Assembly (NCBI GenBank): GCA_023053545.1
Contig: JAKZAN010000005.1
Coordinates: 12,648,001 to 12,712,000 of the forward strand
DNA length: 64,000 nucleotides
Direction: 5' to 3'
Source of the DNA: Lepidurus packardi
Lineage: Eukaryota; Arthropoda; Branchiopoda; Notostraca; Triopsidae
Part shown: positions 23,311 through 64,000 of the stretch, in pieces
Layout: each line of letters opens with the position of its first letter
How positions within the stretch are numbered: the first letter of the stretch is position 1
Translations under genes and position numbers: made by a program
Notes under the pieces: model-generated
The model's database searches: none
What the model saw: only the letters and a program-made list of their open reading frames with translations
Told to the model about the DNA's origin: nothing

Positions 23311-25776
23311 CTAAGTTGAGAAACATTTGATGCAGCAACGGAAAAACAGAGCCAAGATTTCGAGGATCGAAATGAGGCTAGCTCCCAGAAAAAGTCCCAA
23401 GTTGCCTCCCACTTCCCCTAATTTGGATTTTAATAAATTATAAAAGGAATTTTTAGAAATTTCATTGATTGTTTTTCATTAATTTCGTTACCGAGCCATT
23501 TAAGATAAGTATTGGTGTGACTGATGCGCGCTTGGTAGTGAAACGAGGGATAGAAGAAGTGCAGTACGACTGGATTATGTCTATGTAAATCCGTTTTTGG
23601 ATTTTTTCTGCAAGTTTTGGATGAATTGAGACAAGTAGAAGAATTTTACCTTAATACTTTCCAATAACTATATTGTTTGAGTAAGTCCATGTTAAACTCA
23701 GCATAACTAGGCGATAAGTCGTAAGTTTCTTGAACGCACTGTATGGGACATATTCTGGGATCTTCAGGAAGAAAAAAGGAATTCGCTAGTATTTTAGTTA
23801 TAGTATAGATTTACATTATTTATATTATTTAGTATAGATTTACTGTTCGAAAGATCGGTTAAGTTGAAATCCATAATGTGTTGAGGTTCACATAACGGTG
23901 TCGTGTCTAAAAGCCGAAAGGGAGTTAATAGATTTAGTGCTTAATTGTTTAAAGTGTGTTTCTGGCTCCCGTATAGCTTAGCTTCTCATAATAGCATGGG
24001 TTATAGACAAGCAAACTTGCGTTAAATCCACAAAAAGTTTTTTAAAACTCTTGGCAGTAATTTAGGGCACATCAACACAGATGGCATGGCAGTGGTACCG
24101 TTTGGATTTTTTACTTTCACTAATTTAACAAAGGCAAAAGCCGTTTCTAACTTAAAAGCCAAAATATATACACACCGCAGTGCTGCGCGCCACCTCGCGC
24201 TAGCTTGGGACAACAAGCTGTAAGCTATACAGGAGCCTTTAACGCATTTTAACCGAATTGAGATTCATTATTGGTATTAGAATGACCAGAATTCGGTCTC
24301 TTACTCCCGTATTTGTAATGTACCGCTGAACAGTTGCCATATTTCTGGTATTCTCGCTGGCTCTGGGTTAATAAACAGTTTCGCTTGCTGTAATAATCGT
24401 AATCAGGCGTCAATAATTGAATATTGATCGAATCCTTTGTGTCTATGCAAGTGTAAGGAGCTAGGGCGTTGTTCTTTAATTCACTACTGTCAATCTAAGG
24501 TTGGGAGAGGTAGAATGCATTGTCAGTCATCTTTCTAATGCGTTTTGGACGAATTTTGATAGGTTTACCACCGACTTGGTGATGGGCAAGGACACCCACG
24601 AAAAAGGCGCTGCATAGCGACCATTTGTATGTAAAATAGATCCGATATGTATAGACGGACTGGAAACTGCGTAGTACAAACCTTTCCGTAGCACGTACTC
24701 GGGTTTAATAAGCTCTATTTGAAAATCTGAAATTACAAAGATAATTAAAAATCTATTTTAAAAAAACGAATATAGGATACTTATGATTTGAATTGTGTTA
24801 GGCAGGACATAGACTAAGAAACCAGCATCCCTTGACTGGTATTTTTGCCGGATAGTTTTCCCGTGTGTGGTAATACAACTGCCAAAGATACTCACGTACG
24901 GTACAGGGTCGAAGAATTCCTTGCAGCAGTTTCGTTTACGGTAGAAGGCTCCTGCATGACTGCAGCCCAAGACCATATCATCACATCTGTTAAGTTTTTT
25001 GGTTAAAAGAAGATAGTAACACAGATTAAATGAAGGATTTAAGGCTCAGTATAACTTGATGGCTGCGTTTTCTATCACTGCTTTTAAGGTCCATGGACCC
25101 TTGGCCAGGATTGTATCAAATTCCGTTTTCAAAGCTTCTTGCTTCTTTGTATCCTTAATGAATATTGGATTGGCTGCATTTTCCGAAGTCGCGAGGGTCA
25201 AGTACGTGGCCGTTATATTATCCAGACCCATAGCTATGTACGTACCATTTTTCAAACATTTAGAAAGAATCATTTCACAGGGAAACTGTTGTAACAGAAG
25301 TAATACTGTCTCTCGCTATAGTAATATTTCTGGTAATCTTAAAAAATTATAAGGCTGGTAGACTTATAGGTATCAACAGTAATAGGAAGAGGAGATTCTT
25401 AGAAAGACTTACCTGCAAGTCGAGTCATGTTGAAGATTGAAGCGTCACAGATATGAATGTCAGGCAGAATTACACCCTGTTCCTGCTCGTCGGATCGCTC
25501 GATGAATTCAGTTGTTAGGGTTTGGCTAACTAAATTGCTCACGCTCAACTGAATGAGCAGGATGGCCACAACAGCGAAAGCCGCAATCACTGCGGCCCAA
25601 AGCCATCGGCAACAGAAGATTTCATTCTGGTTCACTACGTGCGCGAAGCCGTGGTTACCCGTGGTACGGCAGAAGTAGACCATTGTTCCGCAATCCCACT
25701 TGCATTGGCTGCAAGCAACGGCAGTCTTAGGTTCTTTGAGAAATTCTTTGACTGGATGTAATTCTGGACGGTACAT
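23311..25776 (-). CDS. DEG/ENaC (pickpocket-like) sodium channel subunit, copy A, 484 aa
   Basis: Exons E1-E9: 25776-25413, 25337-25287, 25233-25056, 24986-24781, 24726-24569, 24494-24305, 23761-23650, 23580-23492 and 23417-23311. Phases close (485 codons with stop). E1 carries FCRTTGNHGFAHVV with the gating HG motif (residues 42-43), TM1 (RWLWAAVIAAFAVVAILLI) and the post-TM1 motif LPDIHICDASIFN. E4 has the cysteine-rich NCCKEFFDPVPY and FGSCITTHG, like the family's G-x-CytFN motif. E6 and E7 hold further paired cysteines (CPIQC and SPSYAEF match the family's pre-TM2 C-x-x-x-C and S-x-A signature). E9 holds GGNLGLFLGASLISILEILA: the GAS selectivity filter and TM2. Predicted trimeric amiloride-type cation channel of the plasma membrane; the stimulus is unknown. 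The E2/E3 junction (donor GTTTCC) is weak but is the only in-phase choice. The TATA position upstream reads ATACAAGG. Confidence 0.9.
23964..24237. mobile_element. Inverted-repeat element in intron 6 of copy A
   Basis: Opens GGCTCCCGTATAGCTTA and closes TAAGCTATACAGGAGCC, imperfect terminal inverted repeats of about 17 bp. The interior includes CACAGATGGCATGGCAGT and CGCAGTGCTGCGCGCCACCT. There is no coding capacity, so it is MITE-like. Confidence 0.6.
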
Positions 25777-25847
25777 CCTTTAGCTGACCAGGTCTTGACG
25801 ACAGCCAGGTTTTCAAAGGACTAACAACACATGTCTTGCATCCTGGA

Positions 25848-25855
25848 CCTTGTAT
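25848..25855 (-). promoter_or_regulatory. Degraded TATA position of copy A
   Basis: On the minus strand this reads ATACAAGG where copies C, D, E, G and H have ATATAAGG. It sits 72 bp upstream of the ATG, as in the other copies. The surrounding promoter block (AGGTCC, then AGTCCTTTGAAAACC) is conserved. Confidence 0.5.
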
Positions 25856-26269
25856 TGACTATATAATTACCAAATCTACCAAAAAGATCTATATGAACTT
25901 TCTTGGAAGTCAAGGCAAGTCCGTGAATTCGACCACTCCTATGGACCTTAGTACTGACACATCCCCTTGAGACCGAGAAAGGCGGTGCCCACAAACTTTG
26001 CATTGGAAGATGTTCTTGTTTTCCTACTGTGTAAAGCTACATTCTGGGTTGTTGTTGGTCTGTTTTTATTCAAAACTGTGCCATCTAACGGGCACATTAT
26101 CGACTATTTCTGACCATTTAATATTTCTGATTTGTTAATTTTTTGGAAAAAGGTTATTATTATTTTGAAACAAACTTTCTATTGATCTTATTATTGGTAG
26201 AGAAAAGGAAAAAGGAAAGGCTAGATTCTGTAGTTTGATCTTTGTGGTTCATGCTAGTTTATTTTCAGA

Positions 26270-27524: not shown

Positions 27525-30082
27525 CTAAGTTGAGAAACATTTGATGCAGCAACGGAAAAACAGAGCCAAGATTTCGAGGATCGAAATGAGGCTTGCTCCC
27601 AGAAAAAGCCCCAAGTTGCCTCCCACTTCCCCTAAATTTGGATTATTATCAAAATAATTTGAGAAATTTCTATTTTTTTTTTACCGAGCCATTTAAGATA
27701 AGTATTGGTGTGACTTATGCGCGCTTGGTAGTAAAACGAGGGATAGAAGAAGTGCAGTACGACTGGATCGGATCTGTGTAGATTCAGATTTTTTTATTTG
27801 CAAGTTTGGATGAATTGAGACAAGTAAAGTCATTTTACCTTAATTCGTTTCTGTAATATTTTTGATTCAGTAATTTGGTATTAAAGTCAGCATAACTAGG
27901 CGATAAGTTGTAAGTTTCTTGAACGCACTCTTTGGGACATTTTTCAGGATCTTCAAAGAAAAAGAAAATTCATTAGTATTGTATGGCTCTTGTTGTTTTT
28001 ACAAGCATTTACTATTCGCAAGAACGCTCAAGTTAAAATCCATAAAGTGCTGAGGTTCACAGAACAGTGTCGAGTCTAAAAGTCGAAAGGAAGTTAATAC
28101 ATTTAGTGTGTAATGGTTTAGAATGTGTTTAAGGCTCCCGTATAGCTCAGGTTTTTACAGAAGAGTAGCATGGGTAATAGAGAAGCAAACTTATGCATGG
28201 ACACACAATTGTTTCGGAAATTCTTGACAGTAATGTAGGTAATATAAACACAGATGGCGTGACAGTTGTAACCCTTTCATTTTTGCTTTCATTAATTTCA
28301 CAAATGCAAATTCATTTCTGACTCGGGCGATACATAGCAAAGTGGAGAATTTGGGGACTGTCATGCCCTATAGTTATTTATTTTAATATACTTTTAACCA
28401 AAAATCCATGTAATTTGGTTCTAAACTTATCCCGTTTGCCGTTTTATGCGCAGACGCAATACGCGTTCTCATATACACTGTGCTGTGCGCCTCCTCGCGG
28501 CAGCTTGGGTGTAACAAGCTTTAAGCTATACGGGAGCCGTTACTTTATTTAACCGAATTGAGATTCAATATCGTCATTAGATTGACTAGCATTCGGTCCC
28601 TTACTCCCGTAGTTGTGGAATATCAATGAACAGTTGCTATATTTCCGGTATAGACCCTGCCAATACGTTAAGCCACAGTTTTTCTGGCTGTAGTACTCGT
28701 AATCAGGAGTCAACAATTGAATATTGATCGAATCCTTTGTGTCTATGCAAGTGTAAGGAGCCAGGGCGTTGTTCTTTAATTCACTGTTTTCAATCTAAGG
28801 GCGGAAGAGGTAGAAATTGTCAGTCATCTTTCCGATCTTTCTCATGCTTTTGGACGAATTTCGATATGTTTACCACCGTCTTGGTGATGGGCAAGGACAC
28901 CCATGAAAAAGGCGCTGCATAGCGACCATTTGTGTGTAAAACAGATCCGATATGATCAGCCGGACTGGAAACTGTGTAGAACAACCCTTTCTGTAGAACG
29001 TACTCGGGTTTTAGAAGATCAATGTCAAAATCTGGGATTACAAAGCGAGTTAAGTAATCTATTTTGGGGAAGAAACGTATATAGGATACCTATAATGTGA
29101 AGGGTATTAAGCAAAACATAGACTACGAAACCAGCATCCCTTGACTGGTATTTTTGCGGAATAGCTTTCCCGTGTGTGGTAATACAACTGCCAAAGATAC
29201 TCACGTACGGTACAGGGTCGAAGAATTCTTTGCAGCAGTTTTGTTTATGGTAGTAGGCTCCTGCGTGACTGCAGCCCACGACCATATCGTCACATCTGTT
29301 TCATTTTTATTTAAAAAAAATTGATATTTTAACACAGTATTAAGTTAATGATGTTATCACTTGATGGCTGAGTTTTCTATCATTGATTTTAAGGTCCATG
29401 GACCCTTGGCCAGAATTCTATCAAATTCCTTTTTCAAAGCTTCTTGATTCTTTGTATCATTAATTAATATTGGATTGGCTGCATCATCCGAAGTCGCTAG
29501 GATCAAGTACGTTGCCGTTGTGCTATTCAAACCCATAGCTATACATTTAACATTTTTTAATATTTATAAAGAATTACTCCACAGTGAAACTATTGTAACA
29601 GGAGTTATATTGCCTCTCGCTACAGTAAGAATTCTGGTAATCTTAAAAAATATGATCTTATAGAATTAGAAGCATTAAATAGTAATAGTAGACGTAGTAG
29701 CAGTTGTTTTGGAAAGAGACTAACCTGCAAGTCGAGTCATGTTGAGGATAGAAGTGTCACAGATATGAATGTCAGGTAGAATTGCAGGAGTGCTGTCGGA
29801 TCGTCCGACGAATTCAGTCGTTAAGGTTTGGCTAACTAAATTGGTCACGCTAGAGTGAATGAGCATGATGGCCACGCCAGTGGAAACAGCAATCACCGCC
29901 GCCCAAAGCCACCGCCAACAGAAGATTTCGTTGTTGTCCACTACATGGGCGAAGCCGTGGTTAGCCGTGGTACGGCAGAAGTAGACCACTGTTCCACATT
30001 CATTGTTGCATTGGCTGCAAACAACGGCAGGCTTAGGGTCGTTGAGAAACTCTTTGACTGGTTGTACTTCTGGAGGGTACAT
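27525..30082 (-). CDS. DEG/ENaC channel subunit, copy B, 482 aa
   Basis: Exons: 30082-29725, 29641-29591, 29538-29361, 29295-29090, 29031-28874, 28794-28605, 27950-27839, 27773-27685 and 27631-27525. All nine are in phase (483 codons with stop) with no internal stop, so the copy looks functional. E1 begins MYPPEVQPVKEFLNDPK, with TM1 WLWAAVIAVSTGVAIMLI, which is more diverged than in its neighbours. The E1 donor is GTTAGT instead of GTAAGT. E9 keeps the GAS filter. The HG motif is intact (ANHGFAHV). The promoter TATA position reads ATAACAGG (30154-30161), so transcription may differ from the TATA-bearing copies. Confidence 0.9.
28133..28538. mobile_element. Inverted-repeat element in intron 6 of copy B
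   Basis: Opens GGCTCCCGTATAGCTCAG and closes TTAAGCTATACGGGAGCC. At about 406 bp it is longer than the copy in A because of extra sequence around TGCGCAGACGCAATACGCGT. Non-coding. Confidence 0.6.
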
Positions 30083-30860: not shown

Positions 30861-30864
30861 TTAC

Positions 30865-31720: not shown

Positions 31721-34137
31721 CTAAATTGAAAAGCATTTGACGCAGCAACGGAAAAATAGAGCCAAGATTTCGAGGATTGAAATGAGACTAGCTCCCAGAA
31801 AAAGGCCCAAGTTGCCTCCCACTTCCCCTAAATTTGGATTATTATCAGAATAATTTGAGAAATTTCTATTTTTTTTACCGAGCCATTTAAGATAAGTATT
31901 GGTGTGACTGATGCTCATTTGGTATTGAAACGAAGAATAGAAGAAATGCAGTACGACAAGATCTTCTCTACGTAAATCCGTTTTTTGATTTTTTCCGCAA
32001 GTTTCGGATGAATTGAGACAAGTAGCCGAATTTGAACTTGTTGCTATCCAATCATCATATTGTTTGAGTAAGTCGATGTTAAGTTGAGCATAACTAGGCG
32101 ACAAGTAGTAAGTTTCTGCAACGCACTGTCTGGGACATTTTCCGGGATCTTCAAAAAGAAAAAAAGGAATTCGCTAGTATTTTAGTCGTAGATTTACTGT
32201 TTGAAAGAACAATGGAGTTAACATCCAGAATATGTTGAGGTTCACATAACGGTGTCGAGTCTAAAAGTCGAAAGGGAATTAATAGATTTAGTGTTTAATT
32301 GTTTAAAATGTGTTTCTGGCTCCCGTATAGCTTAGCTTCCCATTAGAGAATAGCATGGGTTATAGAAAAGCAAAGTCGTGTTAATTACACGAAAAAATTT
32401 AAAAACTCTTGGCAGTAATTTAGGGCACATCAATACAGATGGCATGATAGTGGTACCGTTTCGATTTTTTACCTTCACTAATTTAACAAATGCAAAACCG
32501 TTTCTAATTTAAAAGCCAAAATATATACACGCCGCAGTGCTGCGCGCCTCCTCGCGCTAGCTTGGGACAACAAGCTGTAAGCTATACAGGAGCCTTTAAC
32601 GCATTTTATCCGAATTGAGATTCATTAGTGGTATTAGAATGACCAGAATTCGGTCTCTTACTCCCGTATTTGTAATGCACCGCTGAACAGTTGCCATATT
32701 TCTGGAATTTTCGCTGGCTCTGGGTTAATAAACAGTTTCGCTTGCTGTAGTAATCGTAATCAGGAGTCAATAATTGAATATTGATCGAATCCTTTGAGTC
32801 TATGCAAGTGTAAGGAGCTAGGGCATTGTTCCTTAATTCGCTCTCGTCATTCTAAGGTTGGGAGAGGTGGGATTGTCAGTAATTTTTCTGGCCTTTTTAG
32901 ATTTTTGGGGCGAATTTCGATATTTTTACCACGGACTTTGTGATGGGCAAGGACACCCATGAAAACGGCGCTGCATATCGACCATGCGTGTGTAAAACAG
33001 ATCCGATATGTGTAGACCGACTGGAAACTGCGTAGTACAACCCTTTCTGTATAACGTACTCGGGTTTAATAAGCTTTATCTGAAAATCTGAGGATACAAA
33101 GATAATTAAACATCTATTTTCAAACACGAATATAGGATACTTATGATGTCAAGTGTGTTGGGCAGGACATAGACTACGAAACCAGCATCCCTTGAAAGAA
33201 AAGCTTGGCGAATAGTTTTCCCGTGTGTGCTGATACAACTGCCAAAGATACTCACGTACGGTACAGGGTCGAAGAATTCCTTGCAGCATTTGTGTTTATG
33301 GTAGTAGGCTCCTGCGTGACTGCAGCCCACGACCATATCGTCACATCTGTTGCAGATTTTGGTTAAAAGAAGGTCGTACCACAGATTAAATGAAGGATTT
33401 AAGGCTCAGTATAACTTGATGGCTGCGTTTTCTATCACTGCTTTTAAGGTCCATGGGCCCTTGGCCAGAATTGTATCAAATTCTGTTTTCAAAGCTTCTT
33501 GCTTCTTTGTATCCTTAATGAATATTGGATTGGCAGCATTTTCCGAAGTCGCGAGGGTCAAGTACGTGGCCGTTATTTTATCCAGACCCATAGCTATATA
33601 TGTAACATTTTTTCAAATATTTAGAAAGAATTATTTCACAATGAAACTGTTGTAACAGAAGTAATACTGTCTCTCGCTATAGTAATATTTCTGGTAATCT
33701 TAAAAAATTATAAGGCTGGTAGACTTATAGGTATAAGCAGTAATAGGAAGAGGAGATTCTTAGAAAGACTTACCTGCAAGTCGAGTCATGTTGAAGATTG
33801 AAGCGTCACAGATATGAATGTCAGGCAGAATTACACCATATCCCTGCTCGTCGGATCGCTCGACGAATTCAGTTGTTAGGGTTTGGCTAACTAAATTGCT
33901 CACACTCAGCTGAATGAGCATGATGGCCACAACAGCGCAAGCCGCAATCACCGCCGCCCAAAGCCATCGCCAACAGAAGGTTTCACTGTTGTCGACTACG
34001 TGCGCGAAGCCGTGGTTAGCCGTGGTACGGCAGAAGTAGACCACTGCTCCACATTCATTGTTGCATTGGCTGCAAACGACTGCAGACCTAGGTTCTTTGA
34101 GAAATTCTTTGACTGGTTGTACTTCTGGACGGTACAT
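31721..34137 (-). CDS. DEG/ENaC channel subunit, copy C, about 484 aa, with a damaged splice donor
   Basis: Exons: 34137-33774, 33698-33648, 33593-33416, 33346-33141, 33087-32930, 32851-32662, 32148-32037, 31967-31879 and 31827-31721. Every exon is open, and TM1, the HG motif, the cysteine motifs and the GAS filter are intact. At the end of E7, where all other standard copies read AAG then GTAAAA, this copy reads AAG then TTCAAA, so the normal donor is gone. A GT one base earlier (donor GTTCAA, exon end 32038) joined to an acceptor two bases later in E8 (after GTAGAG, exon start 31965) would restore the frame with one substitution. Either the gene uses that pair or it is a very young pseudogene. 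Upstream it has a perfect ATATAAGG box. Confidence 0.82.
32318..32594. mobile_element. Inverted-repeat element in intron 6 of copy C
   Basis: GGCTCCCGTATAGCTTAG at the left end and TAAGCTATACAGGAGCC at the right. It is very similar to the copies in A and E. Confidence 0.6.
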
Positions 34138-49416: not shown

Positions 49417-49496
49417 CCCCTTTTGACCTAAGAGCCAATACTATTAAATCGAGAATAATAATGAGCTAGCTGTGTTAATAATTACTTTAAATGACA

Positions 49497-50215: not shown

Positions 50216-50272
50216 GAAATAGATTGAAAAGGAGTTGCATAGAAGGAAGGGGTTGCATATTCCTTCTATATA

Positions 50273-50370: not shown

Positions 50371-50375
50371 CCCTC

Positions 50376-50676: not shown

Positions 50677-51005
50677 TGTACGCAACACTAAAGAGACTGT
50701 CACGATGTTCGCACATATAGTTCAATTTATTGTGGAATCACTATTACAAGCAACTTGATAAAACGAGGTAAAAACAATTCGGATAAAAGACCGGCACGTC
50801 CGTTTGTCAGTGCAGCTGTATATCGTCTCCCTATATCCTTGAGGGTCAACTCAGGTTGAGCGTCAGTCAAACGTTAAAGGTTATCGATCGGTAAAAGGAT
50901 AAAAATTCTACTGTCGCGAACCTTGGGCATGAATCCGCCAAGGTCGCCTAGTCGGAGTCATTTCGAGTCTCACGTTCGTACCTTCTGGACTCACTGTCCA
51001 GAACA
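50677..51005 (-). repeat. 3' LTR of the BEL/Pao element
   Basis: 329 bp, the same as 57148-57476. The polyprotein stop codon (50991-50993) lies 15 bp inside this LTR. Confidence 0.92.
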
Positions 51006-54000
51006 TCGCCGGCCCTGTTTCCGGTCGGAAACATCTAATCCTCCAGTTGGGTTTTCATCTGAGGCCTCTTCCAGTAGACATAGCTTCGCGACCGGTCGGA
51101 TGAATACGCCGCTCGTAGTTTTAACTCGCGCCACTCTAACAACACCGTCGGACCCGGGAAAGGGTTCTAGGACTCGGCCAAGCGGCCAATGACCGCGAGG
51201 GGTTGTCGGGTCTACAATCAAGACGACATCACCGGTCTTTAAATTTCGGCGGTCCTGTAACCACTTACGGCGCTCTATGAGTGTTGGGACATACTCTCGA
51301 AGCCATCTTCGCCAGAAGAGTTCGGTGATCGCTTGCGAGCATCTCCACCGTTTTCGCGAATCCATTTCGCTCTCTTCGAAAATGTCTACCGGAGTGTTAG
51401 GGTTCGCCCTCCCGAGCAGGAAATGATTTGGTGTAAGGGGTTGTAAGTCGGACGGATCCAGGCTAACGTGGGTTAGTGGCCGTCCATTAATCAAGGACTC
51501 TACTTCTGCCATCACAGTAAGAAGAACCTCGTCGGTAACCGTGCGGTTCTTCAACGTAGCCCGCAACGCTGTCTTCGCCGAACCCACCAACCGCTCCCAC
51601 GCTCCTCCGAAATGGGGCGCGGCTGGCGGAGAAAAACACCATTTTATTCCACGTCGAACGGCTTCTTCGCCTACACGCACGTGATCCATACGACCGAGAC
51701 AATCCCGTAGCTCTTTCTCGGCTGCAACTAAGTTCGTCCCGTTATCACTAAAACATGTTGCAGGGCAGCCTCGTTTGCTAATAAAACGTCTGAGAGCCAT
51801 GATAAACGAATCCGTATCCAATGTGTGGGCTATTTCGATGTGTACCGCTCTTGTAACCAAGCAAGTAAACAAACACCCATAACGTTTGTGGCTCCTACGA
51901 TGAATGACTACGTACAACGGGCCAAAAAAGTCTACTCCGGTGTTATGGAACGGGGGTTTAAAGGCTTCCAAACGTTCGCGCGGAAGTGCTGCCATAATCG
52001 GGGTCTGGGGTTGCACCCTCAACCTACGGCAGACGGGACAACTCCGAATAAACTTCCGTACTGTGGATCTGCCTCGTAGGATCCAGTAATTCTGCTGAAT
52101 CTCCGCTAAAGTACGCTCGATGGAGGCATGGAGGGTCCGTTCATGGGCGTCGCTGATTACATGTCTGGTAAATGGATCTTGAGGGCACAACATAATCGGG
52201 TTTCTCACGTTCGGGTCGAGTTCGGCGTGACGTATACGTCCATCGGCTCGGATAACCCCATCTTTGTCGAGGTAGGGCTTAAGTTTAAGCAGTCGCGAGG
52301 TAGATTTCGTCGGTTTCCCCGCTTCCAACGCTTCGATTTCTTCCTTGAAGGCGTTCAACTGGGCTGCTTTCAAACAAGCATGGGAAGCTTTCTTTACCTC
52401 GTCTACTTGTAATGGTCCGATCGTACGCGATCCCTTTTCAGTACGGCAGTTACGGCCGAAACGAAGTACGCAAGCGATCACCCTTTTAAGTCTGCCAAGA
52501 TTCTTACAACGCGCGAAAAGGTCGTGTACGGGTTTGGCCACTTGAGTCAATAATCCCACCCATTTCGAAGGCAGGATCTCAGGATCATCGGGTTCAGGTT
52601 CGTTTCCATTATCAGTCATTGGCCAACGATCCGGTGGTAATATCAAGAACTCGGGACCATGGAACCACTCCCGACAATTAACCAAATCGGTAGTAGCTAC
52701 CCCCCTACTGCACATGTCTGCGGGGTTGGTTTCACCCGGAACGTGTCTCCATTGGCGCCAGTTGGTCGACTCTAAGACCTCGCCGACCCGGTTGGCCACG
52801 AAGGTCGTGAATCGGCAAGTCTTAGAGTTTATCCACTTAAGTACGGTCGTTGAGTCCGTCCACAGAAAAACCTGTTCCGGTTTGGCTCTCAGTTCGTTGA
52901 TTACCGTTAAGGTAAGCCTGGCGGCTATCACGGCACCGAGGAGCTCAAGCCTTGGGATCGTAAGTTGTTTAACTGGGGCTACGCGAGTCTTTGCAGCGAC
53001 GAGGGAAACCGAGACCGGGCTAGAGGGGTAGTCAAATCGTAGATAGATGACCGCACCGTAACCGGCTTCGGAGGCGTCGCAGAAAGTATGGATTTGAAAG
53101 GAGGACGGGTAGGCCTGAACGGTTCGTAGGCATCGAGGAATCGTTAGCGTTTCCAGGGCTGTAAGCTCGGACGCCCAGGTATTCCATGCTCCTTGAAGCC
53201 GCTCCGGTAGTTCATCGTCCCAATCCAGACGCTGACGCCAAATTTCTTGCAAAAGGACCTTAGCAACTAAGATTACCGGTGCTATAAATCCTAGAGGGTC
53301 GAAGATACTAGCGACCGCCCGAAGGACTCCTCTTTTAGTGGAAACGGACTTAGCGACGACCACTCGAAATAAGAACGCGTCCCTTTCTGCGTTCCACAAA
53401 ACGCCCAAAGTACGTTCGACAGGGAGGTCGTCTAGGTCAATATTGAGGCTCGGAATTAGGCGTTCACCTGCCGGTAAAGCCGCCATGACTTCACGAGATC
53501 CTGAAAGCCATTTCGTCAATCGGAAACCCCCTCGGGCCAACAGGCTAGTCAAGGCGCCACAGGTTTCCGTGGCCTCCTTTTCGGTATCCAGCGAATCCAA
53601 GAAATTGTCCACGTAGAACTGGGTTTTAACCTTGTTCACTAAATCCGGTCGATCGCACCCGAAGTCTTCAGCCGTCCGCTGGAGGGCATACATACAAACA
53701 GACGGCGACGAAACCGCGCCGAAAATCTGTACGGTCATTCTATAGGTATGGGGGGCTGACTGGGATCCAGGGCGTCTCCACAGAAATCTAAGAGCATCTT
53801 GGTCTTCCGGTTTCACGCGCACCTGATGAAACATCTTTTCCACGTCTGAGGAGACAGCGACTGGACGTTCTCGAAAACGGATCAGGAGGCCAACGAGATT
53901 GACCATCAAGTCGGGACCTTGAAGCAGGTTGGAATTGAGCGATGATCCACCGAAGACGCTAGAAGCGTCAAAGACTACTCTGACCTTCCCAGGTTTATTC

Positions 54001-57000
54001 GGGTTAATCACGCCATGGTGGGGTAAATACCAAATTCGGCCTGGAGATCCTCGGAGCTCTTCGAGACTAAGCTTCCTGGCGTGCCCCAAGGATATATACT
54101 CCTCGATAACCGCGTTGTATTTCCCAGCGTAATCAGGATCGCGACGAAATCTGCGTTCGACGGTAAAAAGTCGCTTAAGGGCGGAGCTTCGGTTGTCAGG
54201 TAGCATGGTTGACGAGAACTTCCACGGGAGCCCGATCTCATACCGTTCTCCGTCATGACGAGTGGAAGTTTCGAACGTTTGCATCGCTTGACGATCCGCT
54301 TCACTCACCGGATTCTTCGAGGCAACCATTCCCAACGATTCTACGGTCCAGAATCGCTCGAGGGTTTCGTTAAGCTCCTCAAGTTCCTTAAGGGGTCGTG
54401 TGCTGACGAGGTGACACCGGGGGTACGATGCAATTTGCTTCGTCGAAAGTCCACCTACTGCGCACCAGCCAAAAGGCATCCTGAAAGCTACAGGGGCTGC
54501 GTCGTCGTACTCAGACTCGCGGTAGTCCAGCTGTCTGTGTATTTTCGGTACATCCATTCCGATCAGGACGGTCACATCGTTGGAGTCCACGAGTGGGAGA
54601 TCTAAATCCGCCAAGTGTTCCCATTCCTTCTTCAAATTCGGCCAGTCTACAACTCTTCTTGAAACGCATATCTTCGGTACCGCAAGTGCCTCGGAGACGT
54701 TGAATGAAACGGTTTCCTCACGAGATTTGATCTTGAAACCCACCTGCATGGTTTTGGAGATTGGGTCATTCCCATGGTACGTACCAATTCGCATGCGTAG
54801 GCTCCTTCCCTTCAAACCAAGTTTAGATGCCGCGTCTTGACGGATAAGGGAGGTCTCACTTCCACCATCCAGCAAGGCAAAGGTATCGATGAACGTATCC
54901 TCCGAGTAGAGTCGGACAGGTACGACCAACAGAAGAATTTGTCTTGTCGACCCGTCAGCAGAGACAGCGTTGACGTACGGACCTTCTTCGGATTCGCGAC
55001 TTTGACCGTTTGGTTCTCGACTGCGTCTTGCGCTATTGTTACCAAGCTTGGCCTTCCGATCGAAGGCGCGTGGGGCGTCGTGTAGTAAGCGATGATGAAG
55101 ACGTTTACATCCTTCAAGGCCGCATTCTGCATCTCTTTGGCATTGTCGACTAACGTGTCCTTTGCAGAGGCATCTGAAGCAGTAGCCATTGTTCTTGACC
55201 AGATCGATTTTATCGGGTGGGGAAAGGGATGCAAATTTGTCGCAGTTGGACAACGGATGCGTTCGTCCACATGCGGGACATTTCGTGCTCCCACTGGGTT
55301 CTTCGGTGTCCACGTGCGTTGCAAAGACAGTTGGTGTATAGGAATTCGGTTTCCCCTTATTAGACTTAGGGTACTTCTTCGCTGTGGTCGTAGATTCGGA
55401 GTTTGGACCTTTAGCAGTACCAAGGGGTCGTACCTTTCCTTCAGCCCTCACAAGGTTCTTGAGCCAGCCATCGAAATCGGACAATGTCGGGAGCTGCGGC
55501 TCCATATTTAGTACATGGCGCCCCCACTTGCTTCGAAGTCCGCTGGGGAGTTTGTCTATCAGTTGCTCGAGCGTAGCTGCTGAGGACAACTCATGCCCAT
55601 AACCACAGTGAATAAGGGTAGTTACAAACCCATGGAGTTTACGCGAGAAGTCTCGTAGGGACTCATATTGCTGATTCTTTAGGGCTGGCATTTCAAGTAA
55701 ACTCTTGATATAGCACCTCGCGATCAGTTGCGGATCCCCATACATCTCTTGCAGCTCTTTGAGGGCTTCTTCGTACAATCCCGGACTGAGGAGAGTTTGC
55801 GCAATGCTTTCACGGATGTCGGGACTCAACATTTCCCTTAGCATTGCAATTCGTTGCGCGTCGCAATGTAGGGTATCGTGGACTAGGCTCTTGAATGTGG
55901 CTATAAAAAGGGGCCAATCTTGCGGATTACCATCGAACGGCTTAAGTTCTACCTTCGGCATTACCCCAGAGAACCATGGCGAACACGCGGTCGTCGAGGG
56001 AAAAAACGTACTTGGATTGACCTGTTGGTTCAGTTGGCTTATCCAGGCATCTGGCGGTGTACCTTGAGGCGCTTGGACAGCCGGCCCGTTTAAAGGCCAC
56101 GCGGAGCATTGGGGAGGAGCAGGAGTATTTATAAAACTACTTACAGTTGATCGCTTATTCATAGACAGCTGGTCCATGGCTGTAGAGCGAATAGCAGTAC
56201 TCACCGGGTTTGAAAACCGGACGTCTGCAACGAGCGAGTCAGCTCCACGACCTTGAAGTATCCCAGCTGCCGGAGGGGGAAATCTGATGTCAGGAACTGA
56301 GCGCTGCTGCGATGTTAAAGGGGGAAGTGCGTTTCGCGGGGAATAGCCCCTGTCGTGGTGGATTCGTGGACTGGCGGTCGTTAACTCCCTTGTAATCGCG
56401 AGCGAAGATATCAATTCCTCGTCGACTTCGCGGGCCGCATTTTCTTCTTCATCCACCTCCCGACGTAACTGGACCACCTGCAAGGCTTCTCGTTCCAGCT
56501 GATTCGAAAGATCTCGCCGCCTTTGCTGCTGCTGTATCCTCAATCGCCTTTCTTCGGTTTCCGCTTCTAAAGCCTTCAGAGCCCGTATGTCTTCGACGTG
56601 TTCTTCTACTTCTCGCTGAGATTGATGTAAACGGAGTTCCGTGTCGCGCCTTTGCCTCTCGGCTTCTTGGAGACTGCTGCGTCGCGCGGACGTCACTGTG
56701 CTTCTAGAGTACGTCGACGAGGCATCATTGGCACGAGATTTTACATAATCATCGATTCGAACGTAGGCATTGTTAGTGTCTTCATCCAACTGGCGAATCC
56801 AAGCTTCACTTTTCGCAACTGTCGCTTGTCCGCTTAACTGTGCGACGTAATCCGAATGCGCTTGCATACACTCTTCATACACTTCAGTTAAATTAGCACG
56901 GTGTGCACGTAGCTCAGTCCTACTGCCTCTATCGATGATATGGTTTTCGATTCGATGGATTATTCTTGTTAGCTTGCTTCGGGCGTTTTTTCGAACTTTG

Positions 57001-57080
57001 AGCAAAACTTCAACCACTGACTGAGCCTCCTTCACGGGGCCTTCAACGTTGGCTTCAGGGGGAGGACTCTTCGAGGCCAT
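50991..57080 (-). CDS. BEL/Pao Gag-Pol polyprotein, 2029 aa
   Basis: One frame. The start is the ATG at 57080 (MASKSPPPEA), the first after the primer site. In order: a charged coiled coil (about 10-235), a Gag-like DUF1759 region (about 375-545, KPFDGNPQDWPLF), zinc-knuckle cysteines (about 600-665, CFRCLCKGHVSRQC), an aspartic protease motif LLDGGSETS (about 736-744), reverse transcriptase (about 985-1190, with VVFDASS, SSDVEKMFHQ and the catalytic box FYVDNFLD near 1155), RNase H (about 1330-1470, FCDASEAGYG, WTDSTTVLKW, HVPGETNPAD), integrase with an HHCC finger (about 1646-1685) and a DDE core (GVDFFGP near 1715, CFSDNGTNL near 1775, then a downstream Glu), and a C-terminal DUF5641-like domain (about 1905-2005). 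The RT box reads YVDN rather than YVDD and the protease DGGS rather than DSGS. No frameshift or stop interrupts it. Confidence 0.95.
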   Translation of the reverse strand: MASKSPPPEANVEGPVKEAQSVVEVLLKVRKNARSKLTRIIHRIENHIIDRGSRTELRAHRANLTEVYEECMQAHSDYVAQLSGQATVAKSEAWIRQLDEDTNNAYVRIDDYVKSRANDASSTYSRSTVTSARRSSLQEAERQRRDTELRLHQSQREVEEHVEDIRALKALEAETEERRLRIQQQQRRRDLSNQLEREALQVVQLRREVDEEENAAREVDEELISSLAITRELTTASPRIHHDRGYSPRNALPPLTSQQRSVPDIRFPPPAAGILQGRGADSLVADVRFSNPVSTAIRSTAMDQLSMNKRSTVSSFINTPAPPQCSAWPLNGPAVQAPQGTPPDAWISQLNQQVNPSTFFPSTTACSPWFSGVMPKVELKPFDGNPQDWPLFIATFKSLVHDTLHCDAQRIAMLREMLSPDIRESIAQTLLSPGLYEEALKELQEMYGDPQLIARCYIKSLLEMPALKNQQYESLRDFSRKLHGFVTTLIHCGYGHELSSAATLEQLIDKLPSGLRSKWGRHVLNMEPQLPTLSDFDGWLKNLVRAEGKVRPLGTAKGPNSESTTTAKKYPKSNKGKPNSYTPTVFATHVDTEEPSGSTKCPACGRTHPLSNCDKFASLSPPDKIDLVKNNGYCFRCLCKGHVSRQCQRDAECGLEGCKRLHHRLLHDAPRAFDRKAKLGNNSARRSREPNGQSRESEEGPYVNAVSADGSTRQILLLVVPVRLYSEDTFIDTFALLDGGSETSLIRQDAASKLGLKGRSLRMRIGTYHGNDPISKTMQVGFKIKSREETVSFNVSEALAVPKICVSRRVVDWPNLKKEWEHLADLDLPLVDSNDVTVLIGMDVPKIHRQLDYRESEYDDAAPVAFRMPFGWCAVGGLSTKQIASYPRCHLVSTRPLKELEELNETLERFWTVESLGMVASKNPVSEADRQAMQTFETSTRHDGERYEIGLPWKFSSTMLPDNRSSALKRLFTVERRFRRDPDYAGKYNAVIEEYISLGHARKLSLEELRGSPGRIWYLPHHGVINPNKPGKVRVVFDASSVFGGSSLNSNLLQGPDLMVNLVGLLIRFRERPVAVSSDVEKMFHQVRVKPEDQDALRFLWRRPGSQSAPHTYRMTVQIFGAVSSPSVCMYALQRTAEDFGCDRPDLVNKVKTQFYVDNFLDSLDTEKEATETCGALTSLLARGGFRLTKWLSGSREVMAALPAGERLIPSLNIDLDDLPVERTLGVLWNAERDAFLFRVVVAKSVSTKRGVLRAVASIFDPLGFIAPVILVAKVLLQEIWRQRLDWDDELPERLQGAWNTWASELTALETLTIPRCLRTVQAYPSSFQIHTFCDASEAGYGAVIYLRFDYPSSPVSVSLVAAKTRVAPVKQLTIPRLELLGAVIAARLTLTVINELRAKPEQVFLWTDSTTVLKWINSKTCRFTTFVANRVGEVLESTNWRQWRHVPGETNPADMCSRGVATTDLVNCREWFHGPEFLILPPDRWPMTDNGNEPEPDDPEILPSKWVGLLTQVAKPVHDLFARCKNLGRLKRVIACVLRFGRNCRTEKGSRTIGPLQVDEVKKASHACLKAAQLNAFKEEIEALEAGKPTKSTSRLLKLKPYLDKDGVIRADGRIRHAELDPNVRNPIMLCPQDPFTRHVISDAHERTLHASIERTLAEIQQNYWILRGRSTVRKFIRSCPVCRRLRVQPQTPIMAALPRERLEAFKPPFHNTGVDFFGPLYVVIHRRSHKRYGCLFTCLVTRAVHIEIAHTLDTDSFIMALRRFISKRGCPATCFSDNGTNLVAAEKELRDCLGRMDHVRVGEEAVRRGIKWCFSPPAAPHFGGAWERLVGSAKTALRATLKNRTVTDEVLLTVMAEVESLINGRPLTHVSLDPSDLQPLTPNHFLLGRANPNTPVDIFEESEMDSRKRWRCSQAITELFWRRWLREYVPTLIERRKWLQDRRNLKTGDVVLIVDPTTPRGHWPLGRVLEPFPGSDGVVRVARVKTTSGVFIRPVAKLCLLEEASDENPTGGLDVSDRKQGRRCSGQ

Positions 57081-57122
57081 GGCAAAGGTTTTCACAGAAC
57101 GAGTTCGGAATAAACTTAGGAC

Positions 57123-57140
57123 TCCCGGGTTTCGGCACCA
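57123..57140 (-). other. Primer-binding site of the BEL/Pao element
   Basis: On the minus strand TGGTGCCGAAACCCGGGA starts 7 nt after the 5' LTR. It begins with TGG as expected for pairing to a tRNA 3' CCA end. The tRNA species was not assigned. Confidence 0.75.
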
Positions 57141-57147
57141 GAATTTA

Positions 57148-57476
57148 TGTACGCAACACTAAAGAGACTGTCACGATGTTCGCACATATAGTTCAATTTA
57201 TTGTGGAATCACTATTACAAGCAACTTGATAAAACGAGGTAAAAACAATTCGGATAAAAGACCGGCACGTCCGTTTGTCAGTGCAGCTGTATATCGTCTC
57301 CCTATATCCTTGAGGGTCAACTCAGGTTGAGCGTCAGTCAAACGTTAAAGGTTATCGATCGGTAAAAGGATAAAAATTCTACTGTCGCGAACCTTGGGCA
57401 TGAATCCGCCAAGGTCGCCTAGTCGGAGTCATTTCGAGTCTCACGTTCGTACCTTCTGGACTCACTGTCCAGAACA
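57148..57476 (-). repeat. 5' LTR of the BEL/Pao element
   Basis: 329 bp. On the minus strand it starts TGTTCTGGACAGTGAGTCCA and ends GTTGCGTACA. No difference from the 3' LTR was seen. Confidence 0.92.
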
Positions 57477-57770: not shown

Positions 57771-60700
57771 CTAAGTTGAAAAGCGTTTGACACAGCAACG
57801 GAAAAATAGAGCCAAGATTTCGAGAATAGAAATGAGGCTAGCTCCCAGAAAAAGCCCCAAGTTGCCTCCCACTTCCCCTAAGTTTGTATTTTAGTTATTA
57901 TTAAAATTATTTTAGAAATTTATATATTTTTCTTACCGAGCCATTTAAGATAAGTATTGGTGTGACTTATGCGCGCTTGGTATTGGAACGATTGATAGAA
58001 GAAGTGCAGTACGATTGGATCGTATCTATGTGAATCCAAACTTTTTTTTTCCTACAAGTTTGTTTGAAATGAGACAAATTTTACCTTGATACGTTCTCGT
58101 AATATTGTCGATCAAGTACTTCGGTATTCAAGTTAGAATAACTAGGTGATAAGTCGTACATTTCTTCTACGCACACTATGGGACAGTTTTCAGGATCTTT
58201 TTTATTTATTTTTATTTTTTTAAAAGAAATTCATTAGTATTTTATATTGTTTTTTTTATGAATACTATTTGGGACAATGGTGTAGTTAAAATCCAGAATC
58301 TGTTGAGGTACACATAACGGTGTCGAGTCTAAAAGCCAAAAGGAGCCAAGTGTCAATAGATTTTATGTGGAATAGTTTCACGTGTTCAAGGCTCCCGTGG
58401 AGCCTAAGCTCTTTTTACAGTACGATAGCATGGGTAAACTTACGGAAATAAATCCAAATTTTTATAACGCTTCTTGACAGTCGTGTAACTATACTAACAC
58501 AGATAGCAAAACAGTTGTACCTTTTTTATTTTTGCCTTTCACCAATTTGGCAAATGCAAATTAATTTCTAATTTAAAAGCAAAACTTTTGAAGTTCCGAA
58601 CTGTGATGCCCTATAGACCCGTTTCCAAATTCACCCGCGATATCTAGCGAAGCCCTTGGGAACTAGAGCTCCGCCATCACAACCCCTTCGGTGTATATAT
58701 GAAACTCCCGTATGCCACAGTAAAATTAGTGAACATGAAACCCAAAAGTGGTCAAAATCGTTCTTTTTAACCAAGTTTGCCGTTTGGGACTTGCACAAAG
58801 GAAATAACACACTGCCTTATGACAAGTGCCAGAGAGTAGGGTTGTAATGGCGGATGCAACACTCTTTCTCAATAGATGGCGTATTTTGCAAACAACTCTA
58901 TAGACAAGTTATTTTTAGTATAATTTGTATTTTAAATGCTATGCGAGTTGTTAACGTGTTGATTTAAAGAGTTGTTAACGAGTTATTAACTTATCGTACT
59001 TACTGTTTAAGACCACGGTATACTCTTATGGCGCTACAGCGTGGCAAACTTTAATTAAAAATTCGAATTCTGTGTTCATTGTAATGTAATTATATTGTGA
59101 CAGTAATGCGTGGCAGGTTTAAATCTAGGGAAATGTCGTCCTCTTTTTTAATATCTTTTTCTGCACATTTTAATCTGTTACTCTGTGTTCAAAGTTTTGA
59201 AATTGTGAATTAAATCCCCTATAAAAACAAATCGACGACGATTCCATAGGTTTTATTATTAAGATATTTCTTAAAAAATAGTTTTTGAATGATCTCTTTC
59301 TGTTTTCTGTTTTCGATAATTTTAGGTTTTTCCTTAATGAAATTCCGATCAGAAATTGCATATAGCATAGGATCAAGTGGGTCTACCATCATTGCCATCT
59401 TTTGACAAGAATGATCAACTACTGCCTGCGCAGGCGCAGTGAGCGTTTTCATTTACACCCATGCGCAGTAAATATGTACCAAGCTACGAGCTATACGGGA
59501 GCCTTTAACGTATTTTAACCGAATTGACATTCATTATGGTTATTAAAATGACTGAAATTAGGATCCCTTACTCCCGTGTTTGTAGAATACCGCGGAACAA
59601 TTGCTTTGGCTCTGGTAATTATGCTGCCAATACGATAAAAAACAGTTTGTCTTGCTGTAATAATCGTAATCAGGCGTCAATAATTGAATATTGATCGAAT
59701 CCTCTGTGTCTATGCAAGTGTAAGGAGCCAGGGCGTTGTTCCTTAATTCGCTGTTATCAACCTAAGGGCGGGAGAAGGTAGAATGATCAGTTGTCTTTCC
59801 GGACTTTCTCATGCTTTTGGACGAATTTCGATATGTTTACCACCGACTTGGTAATGGGCAAGGAAACACATGAAAAAGGCGCTGCATAGCGACCATTATT
59901 GTGTAAAACAGATCCGATATGTTGAGCCGGACTGGAAACTGCGTAGTACAAGCCTTTCCGTAGCACGTACTCGGATTTAATAAGATCAAGGTCAAATTCT
60001 GAGGTTACAAAGCGAGATGTATAAAGTGTATAAAGGAATCTGCAATTCGGGTACTTATGATGTGAAGAGTGTTAGGCAGAATGTAGACTACGAAACCAGC
60101 ATCCCTTGACTGGTAAGCTTGCCGAATGGTTTTCCCGTGCGTGGTAATACAACTGCCAAAGGTACACACGTACGGTACAGGGTCGAAGAATTCCTTGCAG
60201 CAGTTTTGTGCATGGTAGTAGGCTCCTGCAAGACTGCAGCCCACGACCATGTCTTCACATCTTTTTAAGGTTTGGGTTAAAAATTAGATGTTGTAACACA
60301 GTATTCAGTTAGTGATATCACTTGATGGCTGCGTTTTCTATCACTGATTTTAAGGTCCATGGACCCTTGGCCAACATTGTATCCAATTCCATTTTCAAAG
60401 CTTCTTGCTTCTTTCTATCATTAATGAATCTTGGATTGGCTGCAGTATCCGAAGTCGCCAGGATCAGATACGTTGCCGTTGTGCTATTGAAGCCCATAGC
60501 TAGACATTTGAAATTTTTAATATTTAGAAAGAATTATTCCACAGTGAAACTATTGTAACAGGAGTTATATTGTCCCTCGCCATAGTAAGAATTCTGGTAA
60601 TCTTGAAAAGAATGTGATCTTATAGAAATTGAAGCATTAAATAGTAATAGTAGACGTAGTAGGAGTTGTTTTGGAAGAGACTAACCTGCAAGTCGAGTCA

Positions 60701-61043
60701 TGTTGAAGATAGAAGTGTCACAGATATGAATGTCAGGTAGAATTGCAGGAGTGCTGTCGGATTGTTCGACGAATTCAGTCGTTAAGGATTGGCTGACTAA
60801 ACTGGTTACGCTAGAGTGAATGAGCATGATGGCCACAACAGCGAAAGCCGCAATCACCGCCGCCCAAAGCCATCGAAAACAGAAGATTTCATTGTTGTCC
60901 ACTACGTGCGCGAAGCCGTGGTTAGCCGTGGTACGGCAGAAGTAGACTACTGCTCCACATTCATTGTTGCATTTGCTGCAAACGACAGCAGGCTCAGGTT
61001 CTTTGAGAAACTCTTTGACTGGTTGTACTTCTGGACGGTACAT
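57771..61043 (-). CDS. DEG/ENaC channel subunit, copy H, 482 aa
   Basis: Exons: 61043-60686, 60601-60551, 60499-60322, 60260-60055, 59998-59841, 59761-59572, 58196-58085, 58025-57937 and 57877-57771. In phase, 483 codons with stop, no defect. It is closest to copy G in E2-E4 and lacks G's 27-nt insertion. E5 has a Trp-to-Cys change (FSCVSLP instead of FSWVSLP), which adds an unpaired cysteine in the extracellular loop. E1 has CFRWLW before TM1 where other copies have CWRWLW. Intron 6 is about 0.8-0.9 kb longer than in the other copies. The E1 donor is GTTAGT. The BEL/Pao element lies only 295 bp beyond the stop codon and may alter its 3' end. Confidence 0.9.
58390..59503. mobile_element. Expanded inverted-repeat element in intron 6 of copy H
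   Basis: Left end GGCTCCCGTGGAGCCTAAG, right end GAGCTATACGGGAGCC. At 1.1 kb it is much longer than the 270-430 bp of other copies. The extra sequence (about 58640-59400) includes AATAGATGGCGTATTTTG and has no coding frame of note. Confidence 0.5.
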
Positions 61044-61290: not shown

Positions 61291-61330
61291 TTCGTCGCAG
61301 TCAATTTCGTCCTGTAGAGCTAATTGGTTC
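61291..61330 (-). promoter_or_regulatory. Conserved upstream block of copy H
   Basis: TTCGTCGCAGTCAATTTCGT then CCTGTAGAGCTAATTGGTTC on the plus strand, 248 bp from the ATG. Confidence 0.5.
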
Positions 61331-61417
61331 CGCCCCTTTTGACCTCAGAGCCAATACTATTAAATCGAGAATAGTAATGAGCTAGCTGTGTTAATAAATA
61401 CTTTGTAAGTGACAAAG

Positions 61418-62150
61418 CAATGTTGGAGTCGTATTCTTCAGCTAGGACCCCGTTGAGCAGATACGAAGAACTAGGCGATATGACGTAAGATTCCACAACG
61501 CACTCCAGCGGACAGTGGTCTTCCGAAGCTTTCAAAAAATGTTAAAACGTAGTGGGGATTTGAGTATTCATTATAATTAAGTATTAAATTACGGTTTTTT
61601 AGGTCATCTGCCCCAGATACCATGACGTCGTCAGTAGCACATATCTTCCTAGAATCTAAGATTCAATTAAAAGAAGATTAACTTGGAATGAAAGTCAACT
61701 GGATCTATAGAATCCATGTAGTTCTTACTGCCATAGGCGTAGAAGACAACGGAGCAATTGACTTCACGCCGGTACGCGTTCTGTTTATAAGACATGTAAC
61801 AGTTTTCTCGGCTGTAGAAAAGGTGTTCGGGAGTCCTGAGTGCTTTATAGGTAGAGACGTCAACGCCCACACAGGTATAGGGAGCCAGGGCGTTACCTTT
61901 CAGTTCACTTTGGTCGACCTGTAGTAAACGGGTAGGGTGTTTACTCCTTCTCATTCTATAAGGTCTCTAATCTTACTATGGATTTAGTAATAGGCACCGA
62001 AACTCATGAATCGGGTGCCGCGTAGTATCCATCGGTATGTAAAACAGTTTCAGTTTGCTCAGTTGCACAACTGCGTAGTACATCCCTGTTTGCAGAACGA
62101 ATTCCGCTTTGACGATCTTCCCTTCAAACTCTAAATCCGAAATAGATTAA
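61418..62150 (-). pseudogene. Fragment of an F-type channel gene (E5-E7), second occurrence
   Basis: E7-like sequence at about 61532-61420 (CVVESYVISPSS), E6-like at about 61918-61727 (open: NALAPYTCVGVDV, ENCYMSYKQNA), E5-like at about 62150-61985 with the same four-base loss as the fragment at 49497-50215. Both ends match that fragment, so the truncation came before the block was duplicated. Confidence 0.78.
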
Positions 62151-62401
62151 AAAGGAGTTGCATAGAAGGAAAGGGTTGCATATTCCCTCTCTATATCTTT
62201 ACTCTATGAGGTAACCTAGACACTGGTTTGACCGTCGTTGTTCATTTTAGTTTATTCCGTTTATTCCGCTAATTGGATCCGACTCTCTTGGTCGAAGAGC
62301 CAGTTGTGTTAGTAGAGGCTAGTAATTAGTTAATTTTGTGAGTAAATACTTGGCAATACGTTTGCCTGTTGTTTCCTTTGTTCATTTTAGTTTATTCCGT
62401 G

Positions 62402-62870
62402 ATACCTAGATGGCGTTTTATGTTCACGTCTCGCAGAGACATCCGCTATTAGGAACGTTGTTTGGTCAAGAACGTGTCTCATGTTGTTGTCAAGTTTTCT
62501 TTTGGTGATAGAGAAGCTTTACTAACAAGGAGTTAAATAACCAGGTAAGCCATATTTTTCCTTATAAAGGCTCAGTTATCTGCCTAGTTAAGAAAAGCGA
62601 GATTCTTTTACTGAAACTAGATTTGAACGAGTTTTTCGAAGTCAAAAGAGGCGCATTGTTTGTTCTTGTTTGGTAGTCAGGAGAAACCACTCATTCTAAA
62701 GAACGAATTAGGACTTCCTAGTTAGACCTTTGTATACGAATTACTACCCAGAAAATGTTTACGTTCCCTCACACTACTTGCAACATGACTTGCAAATTTA
62801 AACCCACCTGGACCTTTCGAGAAGGTCAACTTGCAATTACCGTTATTTCGAATTCTCGAGTATTAAACTT
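62402..62870 (+). repeat. Spacer element S, copy 3' of channel gene I
   Basis: CCTAGATGGCGTTTTATG, TTGTTGTCAAGTTTTCTTTT, AAATAACCAG and the plus-strand donor GTAAGCC at 62545. The tail reads ACTTGCAAATTTAAACCCAC. Confidence 0.7.
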
Positions 62871-63053
62871 AATTGTTTTACACTTTACATTACCATAGCT
62901 TTGGATGTACGTGTATTAGAGGATTAATTCGGAATATTTTAGTGTTTTTGAAGTCCATAGCTCTCTATTGTGTTTAGTTGAAGAAATCGTTAGTATTATT
63001 GTTAGGTTGTATTGATGAAATTCAAGGAATAATGCAAAATTGGGAATGAGAAG

Positions 63054-64000
63054 CTAAGTTGAGAAACATTTGATGCAGCAACGGAAAAATAGAGCCAAGA
63101 TTTCGAGGATAGAAATGAGGCTAGCTCCCAGAAAAAGGCCCAAGTTGCCTCCCACTTCCCCTAATTTGGATTTTAATAAATTATAAAAGAAATTTTTAGA
63201 AATTTCATTGATTGTTTTTCATTAATTTTGTTACCGAGCCATTTAAGATAAGTATTGGTGTGACTTATGCGCGCTTGGTAATGGAACGATTGATAGAAGA
63301 AATGCAGTACGATTGGATCGTATCTATGTGAATCCAAACTTTTTTCCTACGAGTTTCTTTGAAATGAGACAAATTTTACCTTGATATGTTCTCGTAATAT
63401 TGTCGATCAAGTAACTCGCTATTCAAGTTAGAATAACTAGGCGATAAGTCGTAAATTTCTTCTACGCACTCTATGGGACAGTGTTCAGGATCTTTTTTTT
63501 TTTTTTTAAAAAAATAGAGATTCATTAGTATTTTATAATGTCTTTTTTTATGAATACTATTTGGAGCAAGGTCGTAGTTAAAATCCAGAAGCTGTTGAGG
63601 TTCACATAACGGTGTCGAGTCTAAAAGCCCAAAAGAGCCAAGTGTCAATAGATTTACTGTGGAATAGTTTTTGGTTTTTCGTTTATGAAATTCCGATAAG
63701 AAATTGCATATAGCATAGGATATAGCATAAGACCAAATGGGTCTATCACCATTGCCATCTTTTGACAAGAATGATCAACTTCTGGCTGCGCAGACGCAAG
63801 GCGCGTTTTCATATACACACATGCGCAGTAAATATGTACCAAGCTATAAGCTATACTGGAGCTTTTAACGTATTTTAACCGAATTGGCATTCATTATGGT
63901 TATTAAAATGACTGAAATTAGGTTTCCTTACTCCCGTGTTTGTAGAATACCGCGGAACAATTGCTTTGGTTCTGGTAATTATGCTGCCAATAAGTTAAGT
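63054..64000 (-). CDS. DEG/ENaC channel subunit, copy I, 3' part only
   Basis: Exons in the window: E9 63160-63054, E8 63323-63235, E7 63491-63380 and part of E6 from 63932 to the window edge. Frames and splice sites match copies G and H, and the GAS filter and TM2 are present. E7 reads CVEEIYDLSPSYSNLNSELL. The remaining exons lie beyond the window. Intron 6 lacks the left inverted-repeat end, as in copy G. Confidence 0.85.

Follow-up and report, generated by a model that had tools for sequence, protein, structure and literature searches.

A sixteen-gene tandem array of DEG/ENaC channel-subunit genes with mosaic copies in the notostracan Lepidurus packardi

We analyzed a 64,000-nucleotide stretch of the Lepidurus packardi genome (the window; contig JAKZAN010000005.1, written C4 here, C4:12648001-12712000) together with the next 40 kb, 104 kb in all, and found a dense row of 16 degenerin/epithelial sodium channel (DEG/ENaC) genes that spans ~67.5 kb, lies entirely on the minus strand and extends beyond the window. 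The data come from a single assembly of 108.6 Mb in 344 contigs, and position numbers greater than 64000 refer to DNA past the end of the window. DEG/ENaC proteins are sensory and ion-transport channels. With good confidence, we read the row as a tandem array of pickpocket-like channel-subunit genes in which one lineage, the standard type (genes A-E and G-I), was amplified recently beside older and more diverged genes, namely the F-type genes F and J and the distal genes K-P, with segments mixed among the copies. The window holds eight genes in full (A-H) and the 3′ portion of one more (I), as an earlier note on this DNA had described; its count of at least nine genes holds for the window and rises to 16 for the whole array.

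Sixteen channel genes in one row

Searched with the protein of gene A, the 104-kb stretch gave 107 tblastn matches at E ≤ 1e-3, every one of them on the minus strand, and none of 20 controls shuffled in blocks of 6 bases gave any match. With the first exons of genes A and F as queries, tblastn recovered 16 consecutive first exons besides scraps, again all on the minus strand. A protein aligner that allows for splicing, developed for this analysis, supplied one model per gene; together with the tblastn matches, the models bear out the eight complete genes and the partial one in the window. Gene I is intact over its full length, its 5′ end lying outside the window at C4:12713439. Fourteen of the 16 models are free of lesions, the exceptions being C and D, and all introns are GT-AG save for one GC donor in K. 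A C-terminal scrap at array position 79982 was rejected as part of gene N, an initial fusion by the aligner.

The two genes that were scanned against Pfam, A and F, both match the ASC family (PF00858) over its full length (138.3 and 143.5 bits, profile positions 1-453 of 455, cut-off 23.6), which, with the spliced models, confirms the earlier identification of a DEG/ENaC tandem array. The subfamily as modelled has 22 members, comprising the 16 array genes, four genes at C4:11.445-11.467 Mb and one each at C4:13.078 Mb and C2:3.716 Mb, and 82 alignment columns, including 12 ectodomain cysteines, are invariant in all of them. The proteins have a cysteine-rich ectodomain flanked by two transmembrane (TM) segments, which were judged by eye and from alignment with ASIC. 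Specifically, a GxS pore motif at TM2 is present in all 22 members (GAS in 20, GGS in K and GVS in O), and an N-terminal His-Gly (HG) is present in 20, with HA in both F-type genes. In other DEG/ENaC members the GAS belt interacts with HG, according to the available part of PMC12714832. Among Protein Data Bank (PDB) sequences, the product of gene M matches ASIC5 best (E 2.6e-10), then ASIC2, ASIC1, ENaC beta and PDPNaC1 (E 9e-4), and more weakly BRTNaC1 (E 0.05) and PPK26 (E 0.42).

The standard genes have ten exons of about 360, 51, 178, 206, 158, 190 or 217, 63, 112, 89 and 107 nt, with variation in C and D (gene A: 364, 51, 178, 206, 158, 190, 63, 112, 89 and 107 nt). Exon 1 measures 358-364 nt among these copies, and exon 6 is 27 nt longer in G and I (217 nt) than in the others (190 nt). 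The exon lengths listed earlier (51, 178, 206, 158, 190, 112, 89 and 107 nt) hold exactly for A, B, E and H but not for C, D, F, G and I, and the list had missed both exon 1 and the 63-nt exon 7. Genes F, J, K, L and M have nine exons, without the 51-nt exon, and N, O and P have eight, exons 8 and 9 being fused. In gene F, exon 1 is best placed at 44853-44469 and the exons before the 89-nt exon were modelled as 71 and 101 nt; an apparent frameshift in this gene was an artefact of aligning it with the 51-nt exon, without which F is clean.

The lesions of C and D could be avoided by alternative splicing. In gene C, the intron 8 donor reads GTTCAAA as against GGTAAAA in A, exons of 111 and 84 nt replace those of 112 and 89 nt, and the frame is preserved only with the donor shifted by 1 nt and the acceptor by 5 nt. 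In gene D, the reading frame is open if the 51-nt exon 2 is skipped, and the other exon lengths are as listed. This exon was found in standard copies only and is open in seven of the eight; among those seven (D excluded) it has a ratio of nonsynonymous to synonymous differences per site (pN/pS) of 0.36 and a divergence of 0.123, compared with 0.261 and 0.151 in its flanking introns. Its phase is preserved, and it may be a cassette exon or go unused instead of always coding.

The four subfamily genes elsewhere on C4 form a second cluster (C4:11.440-11.470 Mb) on the plus strand, in which two genes lie in 3.7-kb blocks that are 97% identical and 13 kb apart. Two more dense groups of ASC-domain matches occur at C5:3.556-3.572 Mb and C3:11.077-11.092 Mb, so that DEG/ENaC clusters are common in this genome.

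Divergence, mosaic copies and F-type relics

Synonymous divergence (dS) between pairs of the eight standard copies ranges from 0.123 (G-I) to 0.346 (C-D), gene D being the most diverged copy. The F-type proteins are 50-54% identical to the standard proteins, K-P 47-59%, and the subfamily genes elsewhere in the genome 49-59%; the F-type thus comes no nearer to the standard type than genes from other loci do. The earlier description of the array as young thus suits the standard block (dS 0.12-0.35) but not the F-type and K-P genes. In the protein tree, the standard clade, (G,I) with H, F with J, and N, O and P each have 100% support; this tree omits the relatives L021-L023 (22-55% identity on single stretches) as well as two stretches near C4:3.55 Mb in which M had no match at E 1e-4.

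Within the standard block, relationships change along the genes. The nearest neighbor of gene A is C in exon 1 and intron 1 (91% and 97%), E in exon 4 (95%) and I in intron 9 (97%), and that of gene B is I in intron 1 (92%) and E in intron 5 (94%). When the D and E modules, each a standard gene with its upstream F-type sequence, are compared in 150-site windows, identity is 94-97% in the F-type part, 79-89% in the spacer, 91-92% over most of exon 1 and 66-83% beyond. These jumps and the changing neighbors point to recombination or gene conversion between copies, and simple block copying fails to explain them.

Of the eight standard genes, five (D, E, G, H and I) have F-type sequence immediately upstream, either a gene or a relic. 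The fragments reported earlier near 38.1-38.7, 49.5-50.2 and 61.4-62.1 kb, here called fD, fG and fH after the gene downstream, are indeed present and group with F or J, not with unrelated channels. Gene J shares 91.5% identity with F across 2.1 kb, and fD shares 95.7% with F across 658 aligned sites. Relic fG is closer to J (92.6%) than to F (87.4%), as is fH (91.9% and 85.8%), and the two relics are 92.5% identical to each other. Both carry the same 4-bp deletion and TGG-to-TGA change, and their matches to F have the same two ends, which indicates a single death event in one ancestral copy. This argument is made from the lesions, not from trees; a pairing of fG with fH has only 50% support in one block and is missing from a short five-way block, which weighs against a single death. 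Judged from these sequences, the F-type history comprises at least two deaths (fD and fG/fH) and two survivals (F and J), rather than the three deaths and one survival proposed earlier.

We propose that the older F-type and K-P genes were joined by a recent local amplification of the standard lineage, in which unequal crossing-over would have copied stretches that often included an upstream F-type gene. Subsequent recombination or gene conversion would then have shuffled segments among the copies, and some passenger copies would have decayed.

A simpler history, in which a clean two-gene module of F-type plus standard gene was copied whole several times and the F-type gene was then lost from most copies, is possible but in our judgment considerably less probable. 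The earlier note had taken such a pair as the amplified unit, and part of that idea stands. In addition to the five upstream F-type sequences, the relic groups roughly fit their partners, fD going with F and the other two relics lying closer to J, and the G and H modules are 91.6% identical over gene and relic together, with window identities of 88-98% along their length, the last window excepted. The B-C spacer, moreover, holds both flanks of fH without the relic (30087-30421 resembles 61048-61403, and 30338-30860 resembles 62268-62775 at 88.8%), as after a full deletion, so that complete loss of an F-type gene there is possible. Nevertheless, the module appears not to have moved as one block. 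No F-type match was found upstream of A, B or C, in the A-B, B-C and C-D spacers, and the ages of the module partners differ at D, where fD is 95.7% identical to F but D-E dS is 0.29 and D is the most diverged copy. Similarly, F-J dS is 0.133 but E-I dS is 0.211. The identity jumps between the D and E modules, the changing neighbors along the genes and the lesions common to fG and fH likewise argue against whole-module copying.

Selection and likely role

Over the eight standard copies, omega is 0.607 under the Goldman-Yang (GY) codon model, and pairwise dN/dS ranges from 0.31 to 0.72. For nine chosen pairs, of which those with a common gene are non-independent, pN/pS is 0.32-0.67, with pN below pS in every pair (one-sided p from 0.018 to 2e-13). 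Selection on the standard copies is purifying, as the earlier note had anticipated for intact copies, but relaxed. By exon, pooled pN/pS is 0.11 in the TM2/pore exon, 0.89 in exon 7 and 0.85 in exon 8, the last two of which we take to encode the thumb region, provided that the ASIC layout holds. Positive selection was sought in exons 7-8 and not found at these pooled values; in sliding windows, only 2 of 40 exceed one (codons 193 and 205), and there are few synonymous changes there.

The products would most likely assemble as trimers into amiloride-type cation channels in which the pore is conserved and the thumb region changes fast, and they probably serve as sensory or ion-uptake channel subunits; the earlier note had suggested that such an expansion could underlie lineage-specific chemo-, osmo- or mechanosensation. 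A role in epithelial salt uptake or osmotic balance, rather than sensation, is a tentative alternative that we favor less: many diverse tandem copies are more usual in sensory families, which counts against it. The family does include ENaC, and an epithelial Na+ channel has been inferred via inhibitors in Daphnia magna neonates, although the same source, in the part available, goes on to note a lack of clear evidence for such channels (PMC9644288).

It is unlikely that the array is a decaying block of little function in which most copies are drifting to pseudogenes. At least five relic fragments, the lesions of C and D, the omega of 0.6 and the values near 0.9 in exons 7-8 would suit such decay, but it fits poorly with 14 of 16 lesion-free models, with pN below pS in all nine pairs and with the strongly constrained TM2/pore exon. 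We give slightly less credence still to a more elaborate scheme in which F-type and standard subunits would be obligate partners of a mixed channel. The F-type would then be the regulatory subunit, its gating motif having switched from HG to HA. The standard copies would be diversifying, with a rapidly changing thumb and with 17 residues newly acquired behind the first ectodomain strand, such that channel combinations might be tuned to different cues. Finally, inflation of the array by haplotypes or mis-joined copies, in whose favor stands the use of a single assembly, is very improbable, given that no near-identical pair exists among the eight standard copies (lowest dS 0.123) and that spacers, relics and the inserted retrotransposon vary between copies.

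Some of our results weigh against a recent standard amplification with copy mixing beside older genes. Branches mixing K-M with F-type and with off-array genes mostly have 24-80% support, so a single origin of the whole array is not established. In a test for long shared runs, 5 of 28 pairs pass after correction (2000 permutations), in support of mosaicism, but the test presumes even divergence along the gene and its p values are approximate; the shifting nearest neighbors are the firmer sign of mosaicism. In addition, an omega that is high for a channel, together with exons 7-8 at 0.85-0.89, may mean that some copies are drifting.

Features of the locus and comparison with known systems

Table 1. 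Coordinates of the annotated features (window positions unless marked C4)
Feature	Position	Strand	Type and state	Evidence
Gene A	23311..25776	-	standard, intact, 505 aa	splice models, Pfam ASC
Gene B	27525..30082	-	standard, intact, 503 aa	splice models
Gene C	31721..34137	-	standard, altered intron 8 donor	splice models
Gene D	34880..37607	-	standard, 4-bp deletion/frameshift in 51-nt exon 2	splice models
Relic fD, upstream of D	38135..38705	-	F-type, 3′ exons (about 7-10) only	
Two standard-like scraps	38813..39113	-	exon 1 start (39113-39069) and part of exon 4 (38890-38813)	
Gene E	39849..42278	-	standard, intact, 503 aa	splice models
Gene F	42798..44853	-	F-type, intact, 9 exons	splice models, Pfam ASC
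Relic between F and G	45566..46149	-	standard-type, exons 4-6, contains stop	
Gene G	46768..49127	-	standard, intact, 513 aa, exon 6 of 217 nt	splice models
Relic fG, upstream of G	49474..50226	-	F-type, exons 5-8	
BEL/Pao LTR retrotransposon	50677..57476	-	between G module and H	
Gene H	57771..61043	-	standard, intact, 503 aa, with an enlarged intron 6 (about 1.2 kb)	
Relic fH, upstream of H	61410..62215	-	F-type, exons 5-8; DNA block 61416-62138	
Gene I, 3′ part	63054..64000	-	standard, part of exon 6 and exons 7-10	
Gene J	C4:12713945-12716002, just outside window	-	F-type, intact, upstream of I	

The BEL/Pao element has identical 329-bp long terminal repeats (LTRs; 50677-51005 and 57148-57476), a 5-bp target duplication (GGTTC; ends placed by eye) and one open frame of 2055 codons with Peptidase_A17, DUF1759, integrase zinc-binding and DUF5641 matches. 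Its insertion is very recent and interrupts no channel gene. Outside the channel genes, the window contains three tandem repeats, with a 145-bp unit in seven copies (4162-5189), a 197-bp unit in four (16081-16867) and a 100-bp unit in three (18106-18406), and an open frame (3300-4034) with a weak protein phosphatase 2C match (21.1 bits, below the cut-off of 24). Elsewhere in the genome, Chitin_bind_4, a cuticle family typical of arthropods, has at least 150 matches, including a very large group at C3:0.42-2.8 Mb, in keeping with an arthropod host. Three paired globin-domain genes lie in a row ~3 kb apart at C3:8.691-8.698 Mb, and 8.583 Mb has a fourth pair, an arrangement that would suit a branchiopod, as branchiopod haemoglobins are two-domain proteins. 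Both Daphnia and Triops use haemoglobin, according to the available part of PMC7457136. Insect odorant receptors (7tm_6) gave 0 matches in a genome search that had no working positive control, and Daphnia is reported to be without them, as far as the accessible text of PMC2680840 goes.

Among the literature matches listed, none describes, in its title or the opening of its abstract, a DEG/ENaC array from a branchiopod. Clustered pickpocket expansions are already known in flies and crickets, and the present array is an ordinary expansion of this kind rather than a new kind of system. In Drosophila melanogaster, 9 of 31 pickpocket genes are clustered in groups of 2, 3 and 4 (Zelle et al. 2013, PMC3583452, available in part), likewise through local duplication, compared with the 16 in a row, second cluster of four and two single genes modelled here; PPK26 matches M only at E 0.42, as a PDB sequence. 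In Gryllus bimaculatus, 9 of 15 class V pickpocket genes lie within 900 kb (PMC8203789, in the portion available). We liken this local expansion to ours by its clustering, not by class membership; the L. packardi array is much denser, at 16 genes in 67.5 kb, and its relics and mosaic copies have been resolved. DEG/ENaCs are regarded as candidate arthropod chemoreceptors, and the russet mite has four such genes (both from the accessible part of PMC7738191).

At the protein level, the solved arthropod channels to be matched include the centipede PDPNaC1 and BRTNaC1 (PMC12714832), at the E values given above. The available part of that source describes PDPNaC1 as without the canonical HG, whereas here HG is retained in 20 of 22 members and is HA in the two F-type genes. 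Vertebrate ASIC and ENaC have HG and GAS motifs and two TM segments, as here, although the matched stretches listed cover only the TM1 region and the palm/TM2 end, and the likeness is one of sequence alone. Beside these systems, a dense array that combines intact genes, relics with common lesions and mosaic copies offers a natural series on the diversification of channel subunits under a fixed pore.

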